Assembly: GCA_017503015.1 (NCBI GenBank)
Contig: JAFVTX010000060.1
Span: 1-34,542, forward strand
Direction of reading: 5' to 3'
Origin: Fibrobacter sp.
Lineage (GTDB): Bacteria > Fibrobacterota > Fibrobacteria > Fibrobacterales > Fibrobacteraceae
Length of the DNA: 34,542 nucleotides
Both the position numbers and the translations under genes were made by a program. This document shows, one piece after another, positions 32,449 to 32,807 of the stretch. The notes below the pieces were generated by a model. It was not told the DNA's origin, searched no databases, and saw only the letters and a list, made by a program, of their open reading frames with translations. How positions within the stretch are numbered: the stretch's first letter is position 1; each line of letters opens with the position of its first letter.

Positions 32449-32467
32449 TATGCGATAAGGGAGATGG

Positions 32468-32478
32468 CTCCAGGTTCT
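32468..32478 (-). repeat. Sequence complementary to the tRNA T-arm, copy A
   Basis: On the minus strand GAACCTGGAGC is the exact complement of GCTCCAGGTTC in the tRNA fragment at 32549-32559. A second copy with an 8-bp match (CCAGGTTC, 32667-32674, against GAACCTGG at 32751-32758) lies downstream of the intact tRNA. Both are followed on the plus strand by TCRYCC. They enclose the two terminator hairpins. Confidence 0.55.
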
Positions 32479-32494
32479 CATCCCTACTCAGAAT

Positions 32495-32530
32495 AAAAAA
32501 GACCCCTCTCTTGCCGAGAGGGGCCTTTTT
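32495..32530 (-). terminator. Terminator downstream of the tRNA fragment
   Basis: CCCCTCTC pairs with GAGAGGGG (32503-32510 and 32516-32523) around a 5-nt loop, with T6 after it on the minus strand and T5 after it on the plus strand. Confidence 0.8.
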
Positions 32531-32531
32531 A

Positions 32532-32561
32532 TGCGGGTGCCAGGACTCGAACCTGGAGCAG
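32532..32561 (-). pseudogene. tRNA-Arg 3' fragment (T-arm and 3' acceptor strand)
   Basis: On the minus strand the CTCCAGGTTC T-arm, its closing strand and CACCCGCA match the intact tRNA-Arg at 32734-32807 base for base, from the variable-loop end to the discriminator and on into TAAA. The upstream part (about 32562-32605) does not form D or anticodon arms. It may be an attachment-site duplicate from a lost integrative element, or a decayed tandem copy. Confidence 0.65.
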
Positions 32562-32571
32562 GGTAACGACC

Positions 32572-32647
32572 GGACTAGCCTAGATTCTCGTATAAAAAAA
32601 CGGGCGGGCTAGTCCTCTCGCAACCGCCCCAGTTCAATAACTGGGGC
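32572..32647 (-). promoter_or_regulatory. Overlapping attenuator-like hairpins
   Basis: On the minus strand a perfect 9-bp hairpin (GCCCCAGTT/AACTGGGGC, 32647-32626) shares its second strand with a terminator stem, GGGCGG/CCGCCC followed by T7 (down to about 32594). That stem in turn competes with a 9-bp helix GGACTAGCC/GGCTAGTCC (32615-32607 and 32580-32572). The three helices cannot all form, which is the logic of an attenuator. No coding gene follows directly, only the tRNA fragment. Confidence 0.45.
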
Positions 32648-32691
32648 TTTGTTGCTCACAAAGGACCCAGGTTCTCGCCCTATCGTCGGTA

Positions 32692-32730
32692 TAAAAGAAG
32701 AATCCCCCTCTTTACGAGGGGGACTCTTCT
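32692..32730 (-). terminator. Terminator of tRNA-Arg
   Basis: On the minus strand AGAAGAGTCCCCCTC pairs with GAGGGGGATTCTTCT over 15 bp (one G.U) around a 5-nt loop, followed by TTTTAT. It begins a few bases after the tRNA. Confidence 0.8.
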
Positions 32731-32733
32731 TTA

Positions 32734-32807
32734 TGCGGGTGCCAGGACTCGAACCTGGAGCCTTTTGGTTCGTAGCCAAACGCTCTATCCAGTTGGGCTA
32801 CATCCGC
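32734..32807 (-). tRNA. tRNA-Arg (anticodon ACG)
   Basis: The 74-nt gene folds as a cloverleaf: acceptor GCGGATG/CACCCGC, D-arm GCCC-AACTGGATA-GAGC, anticodon stem TTTGG/CCAAA with loop CTACGAA (anticodon ACG), 5-nt variable loop, and T-arm CCAGG-TTCGAGT-CCTGG. It would read CGN arginine codons after A34-to-inosine editing. CCA is not encoded. Two A.C mismatches stand out: acceptor 5-68 and D-stem 12-23. It has its own promoter and terminator, and a copy of its 3' end lies 202 nt downstream. Confidence 0.93.

Follow-up and report, generated by a model that had tools for sequence, protein, structure and literature searches.

Organization of the tRNA-Arg locus

The window analysed here, a 34,542-nucleotide stretch of DNA from Fibrobacter sp. 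(GCA_017503015.1, contig JAFVTX010000060.1), carries on its minus strand an intact tRNA-Arg(ACG) gene followed by an array of repeated, structured DNA (Table 1). Behind the tRNA come terminator 1 and an inverted stretch beginning GAGAACCTGG; hairpins then occupy about 100 nt, and a copy of the 3' part of the tRNA, terminator 2 and a second inverted stretch follow. An earlier note on this DNA had described a tRNA-Arg unit repeated at about 200 bp, with the tRNA whole in one unit (unit B), only its 3' part present in the other (unit A) and a terminator behind each 3' end. This description holds in full: ARAGORN and Rfam both identify the complete tRNA, the copy matches its 3' part at 29 of 29 nt from a distance of 202 nt, and both terminators are present. 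The tRNA alone passes among known RNA families searched in the window with Rfam.

The same note had pointed to downstream sequences complementary to the T-arm over 11 bp in one unit and 8 bp in the other. The shorter length stands, as GAGAACCTGGGTCC has eight exactly complementary positions plus one wobble to tRNA-Arg; the longer is close but measures 12, with GAGAACCTGGAGCC (32466-32479) exactly complementary to 12 nt of the tRNA (32751-32762). Both arms contain a GAGAACC motif of the type found in RtT RNA, the repeat known from the E. coli tyrT locus for decades, whose role is little understood. Like RtT, the window unit lies directly 3' of a tRNA gene on the same strand and holds the 3' end of its own tRNA. 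The T-loop of the copy, TTCGAGT, is undivided, and between arm and copy stands a segment that the earlier note had not recognized: these roughly 100 nt are part of a dispersed structured element, here called element E. No promoter-like site was found between tRNA-Arg and the unit, where a strong terminator stands. Downstream of the array, a small HTH_3 (Xre-type) gene occupies 31899-32246 on the minus strand, and several further species of the genus seem to have small HTH proteins encoded after their tRNA-Arg.

Table 1. Features of the tRNA-Arg array, in window coordinates
Feature	Position	Strand	Sequence or basis
Promoter-like site of the tRNA gene	32820..32847	-	TTGACA-16-TATATT, 11/12; consensus match only
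Intact tRNA-Arg(ACG)	32733..32808	-	ARAGORN and Rfam
Terminator 1	32693..32731	-	sequence
Inverted arm of unit B, 5' strand of P1; counterpart of the RtT GAGAACC arm	32663..32676	-	GAGAACCTGGGTCC
Element E, two hairpins amid invariant letters; replaces the RtT core here	32568..32659	-	
Invariant letters of element E	32654-32659, 32615-32621, 32568-32572	-	GTGAGC, GCGAGAG, CGGTC, respectively
Hairpin H1 of element E	32620..32655	-	
Hairpin H2 of element E	32572..32615	-	GGACTAGCC/GGCTAGTCC
Exact 29-nt copy of the tRNA-Arg 3' part; first part provides the 3' strand of P1	32531..32559	-	GCTCCAGGTTCGAGTCCTGGCACCCGCAT
Terminator 2	32496..32530	-	
Inverted arm of unit A	32466..32484	-	GGGATGAGAACCTGGAGCC; RtT-type arm motif within, GGGATGAGAACC

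Recurrence and fold of the tRNA-Arg unit

Direct or inverted copies stand behind 6 of the 42 tRNA genes read in the genome (Arg-ACG, Gly-GCC, Gly-CCC, Arg-TCT, Pro-CGG and Ser-CGA); at the remaining 36, the best matches, direct or inverted, span 4-8 nt. Across the genus, at least two tRNA-Arg 3' ends are present in 10 of the 21 species with a readable locus, that of the window included, and one species has three. The window unit also folds better than all 200 shuffled versions (z -6.6 and -7.6). Taken together, the short matches at the other tRNAs, the recurrence among species and the fold argue that the arrangement is not a product of chance.

In eight species the unit folds as a three-way junction of P1, formed by arm and tRNA copy, and the hairpins H1 and H2. 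Among window-type units, 94.8% of the cells in P1, the base of H1 and H2 are paired, and 11 cells carry double changes compared with 2.6 in shuffles, a covariation that is drawn from related sequences on the scale of 12 species and that hairpin correction could mimic. Nine pairs of H2 are kept in every sequence with letters there, four of them with double changes. P1 changes along with the tRNA: where tRNA-Arg of two species has T for C, the inverted stretch has A for G. In five of the eight species P1 is mismatched at one pair. The junction letters GTGAGC, GCGAGAG and CGGTC are invariant and among the most conserved in these units. With the inverted stretch and the hairpins covarying, the three-way-junction fold looks to be maintained.

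The complementarity to the T-arm is thus real, conserved in relatives and responsive to changes in the tRNA; absence from close relatives, which the earlier note had named as evidence against it, is not what relatives show, since they carry the feature. The note's proposal that the downstream RNA might pair with the precursor tRNA and affect folding or processing is less favoured. The partner with which the arm covaries may equally well be the tRNA copy that follows it, and E. coli RtT has the same arm, so that a role as 5' strand in a fold of RtT type is the better reading.

Some of these features might arise through zig-zag template switching, in which a replicating strand that turned back on the terminator hairpin and on the palindromic T-arm would generate both inverted and direct copies, with no function needed. 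The inverted arm does extend the terminator hairpin outwards, the turns are short loops such as GAA, and hairpin correction could yield the covariation. However, the most conserved letters lie in motifs that are mutually unpaired (GAGAA, TTCGA and CCCGNAGGG; GTGAGC, GCGAGAG and CGGTC), and GAGAA, TTCGA and CCCGNAGGG recur in distant phyla. We therefore consider this route unlikely.

Copy number at the locus differs among close relatives, in which the same terminators appear in shifted order. Three related genomes have one or two units; counted as 3' ends per locus, there is one in G022 and there are two each in G016 and in the window genome, the latter with a different first terminator. This is the pattern that gain or loss, in either direction, by recombination between identical repeats produces. 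Of the two origins raised in the earlier note, tandem duplication agrees with this gain or loss of tandem units among relatives. The other, a relic left by an integrative element with its attachment site at the tRNA 3' end, would explain the direct repeat of that end, but several findings speak against it: the genome's five tyrosine recombinases include none on the window contig, no sizeable ORF lies between the repeats, the fold is kept in many species, and one design recurs at many tRNAs, each time with their own sequences. We regard such a relic as very improbable.

Element E is a dispersed structured repeat of the genus, about 96 nt long, with the layout GTGAGC-H1-GCGAGAG-H2-CGGTC (for example, at G000:C38:1-4300, where G000 is the window genome). 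Sixteen further copies were found in the genome at E < 1e-4, partly in tandem and mostly with no tRNA nearby. We considered REP/RAYT-type transposition and saw no link. The window genome has a sole match to a Y1 (IS200/IS605-type) transposase, a fragment interrupted by a stop, at G000:C38:62808-62996. Nothing in the sequence suggests that element E, or the core described below, is a hammerhead or group I/II intron RNA, and Rfam gives no such match.

Units behind other tRNA genes

In the genus and its relatives, units of RtT-like design also follow genes for tRNA-Pro, -Gly, -Ser, -Ala and -Arg, and in most of these units a hairpin core is set into the T-loop. In those of tRNA-Pro, -Gly, -Ser and Arg-TCT the core comprises P3, P4, CCCGNAGGG and P6 and differs from what the window unit has. 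This core sits inside the T-loop of the tRNA copy, right after TTCGA (nt 54-58), giving TTCGA-core-nt 59 and onwards. Its pairs covary, with 48 double-change cells against 17.9 in shuffles, and the outer arm is decayed at some of the tRNA-Pro loci. Searched with a model of the core, the window genome gives seven matches and a relative six, all 13 of them at tRNA genes; the same search found no core outside tRNA loci in these two genomes and no match in one genome of another family. One of the seven in the window genome is a tRNA-Pro that has decayed yet keeps its full length; it carries the core at 58/59 and lies just upstream of the intact tRNA-Pro (G000:C30:91190-91360). Behind the tRNA-Pro(CGG) of a relative (G016:C5:73838-74311) are three RtT-like units with equal scores and 162-bp spacing, together with more diverged ones, an arrangement that suggests recent amplification.

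The fixed position of the core invites a second reading, that of a mobile or selfish element. Here the hairpin core, or element E, would move into tRNA 3' copies at a fixed point, with the arms holding both sides in the manner of a folded recombination site or a guide. Several observations favour it: the core lies at exactly 58/59 in copies of Pro, Ser, Gly, Arg-TCT and E. coli Tyr, the decayed tRNA-Pro has it at that same point, and presence is patchy, with tandem copies that include the three 162-bp units. Yet no tyrosine recombinase of the genome is encoded on the window contig, the core is confined to tRNA loci in the two genomes searched, and the arms are matched to the tRNA at each locus, as those of one unit moving between loci would not be. 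Mobility is therefore a possibility to be kept in mind, at roughly a one-in-five level of belief, and we rank it second to action as a processed RNA.

Relation to RtT and distribution across phyla

Matches to the Rfam model of RtT (RF00391) were compared with its gathering score of 45. The model finds nothing in the window up to E 5, and the window unit contains neither a T-loop split at 58/59 nor CCCGNAGGG. In a relative, it matches the tRNA-Ser unit across its whole length at 33 bits (E 5e-5 to 3e-3), below the gathering score; of 20 sub-threshold matches in the genus, the best at 37.6 bits, 18 lie beside a tRNA (Ser, Pro or Gly). Conversely, a core model built from this genus alone recovers the four E. 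coli tyrT units (E 0.002-0.02). Read directly, E. coli tyrT has the same arm as units of the genus (GGGGAAGGATGAGAA...), a T-loop split alike, CCCGAAGGG and the tRNA-Tyr 3' end, and its units divide tRNA-Tyr at the same place, as TTCGA-core-A...TCC. The relation to RtT is thus visible both ways, in that RF00391 matches units of the genus and the core model of the genus finds the E. coli units.

We also scanned 84,980 species genomes with a pattern of arm, T-stem and CCCGWAGGG that holds no tRNA-specific letters beyond the T-stem. Among the matches listed, 64 of 80 loci follow a tRNA in the same orientation, in most cases at a distance of 40-90 nt. In 53 of 75 listed matches the core is followed by the upstream tRNA's own 14 nt from position 59, exactly so in 31, compared with 2.8% when tails are shuffled. 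At least seven groups of phylum or class rank have such units after tRNA genes; by record title, the listed loci with a copy include gamma-, beta- and deltaproteobacteria, Chlamydiae, Verrucomicrobia, Kiritimatiellae, Chlorobiota and Fibrobacter, although many loci come from metagenome bins, in which single group assignments may be wrong. The two segments that flank CCCGWAGGG have better folds than shuffled sequence, with mean z of -3.5 and -1.9, and 4 of the 15 loci checked, E. coli included, reach the Rfam cut-off. A related pattern is found in 40 of 121 genomes of the window genome's class, with two control matches when the pattern is reversed. Because the core model of the genus is weak in other phyla (13 weak matches over 41 loci), the evidence across phyla comes from the pattern scan and from the test for tRNA copies.

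Interpretation

With moderate confidence, we read the array as a variant form of an RtT-type tRNA tail repeat, acting as a processed RNA by read-through. Each unit consists of an inverted arm complementary to the upstream T-arm, a hairpin cluster and a tRNA 3' copy with its terminator. In the common form, that of other tRNAs of the genus, E. coli and other phyla, a core of hairpins with CCCGNAGGG splits the T-loop after A58; in the window form the T-loop stays undivided, with element E placed between arm and copy. The unit is predicted to be transcribed when polymerase reads through the tRNA terminator, to fold with the arm and the tRNA-derived strand as its closing stem, and to be freed by tRNA end-trimming enzymes, as reported for RtT in E. 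coli. Its copy number would shift through recombination between identical tRNA 3' ends. Of the readings considered, a processed RNA from tRNA read-through is the most likely for the window unit.

A broader proposal is more tentative. RtT may be a small part of a much larger class, widespread among bacteria, of tail elements tailored to their tRNAs, in which the core enters tRNA 3' copies at 58/59, held by arms that match either side of this point, and which spread or are renewed by an undescribed mechanism; the Arg units would show that the core can be swapped for a different, dispersed element. We hold this to be a speculative idea, clearly less probable than the reading of the array itself. 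Comparison across loci does bring out a rule that cannot be seen from one locus: units are built from their own upstream tRNA, around one fixed T-loop point, with motifs that recur in several phyla.

Comparison with known systems

Integron attC and other folded single-strand attachment sites have inverted outer arms, variable hairpins and repeated cassettes. The units described here resemble attC-type sites in their arms and hairpins, but no integron-type integrase was found near and there are no ORF cassettes, so that we see a likeness and not membership.

The closer comparison is with RtT RNA (RF00391; rttR, the E. coli tyrT repeats), which, like the window array, forms tandem units of variable number behind a tRNA, with an inverted GAGAA arm, hairpins and a tRNA 3' copy. 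In Salmonella, a 175-bp change in repeat number has been described in rtT RNA (PMC2658671), and sequences similar to RtT have been noted among bacterial interspersed mosaic elements (PMC2965389). E. coli RtT RNAs are reported to be released from tRNA transcripts and to have links with the stringent response and with amino-acid limitation; the Pasteurellaceae sRNAs Arrc20 and Arrc21, of the RtT family and with detected expression, adjoin tRNA-Asn and tRNA-Lys genes (PMC4986893). These Pasteurellaceae sRNAs extend the family beyond tRNA-Tyr; they belong to Gammaproteobacteria and have proven expression, whereas the window unit is known from its sequence. The window unit further differs in having element E in place of the T-loop core and CCCGNAGGG, in its lack of an Rfam match, and in its phylum and tRNA. 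Since place, 3' copy, arm motif and repeat structure are shared while the T-loop core and model score fail, it is best read as RtT-like, probably a variant of RtT that stands outside the formal family and may share common descent with it. Seen in this way, an odd E. coli repeat becomes a comparable class with many natural variants, in which processing, mobility and effects on the upstream tRNA are open to clear tests.
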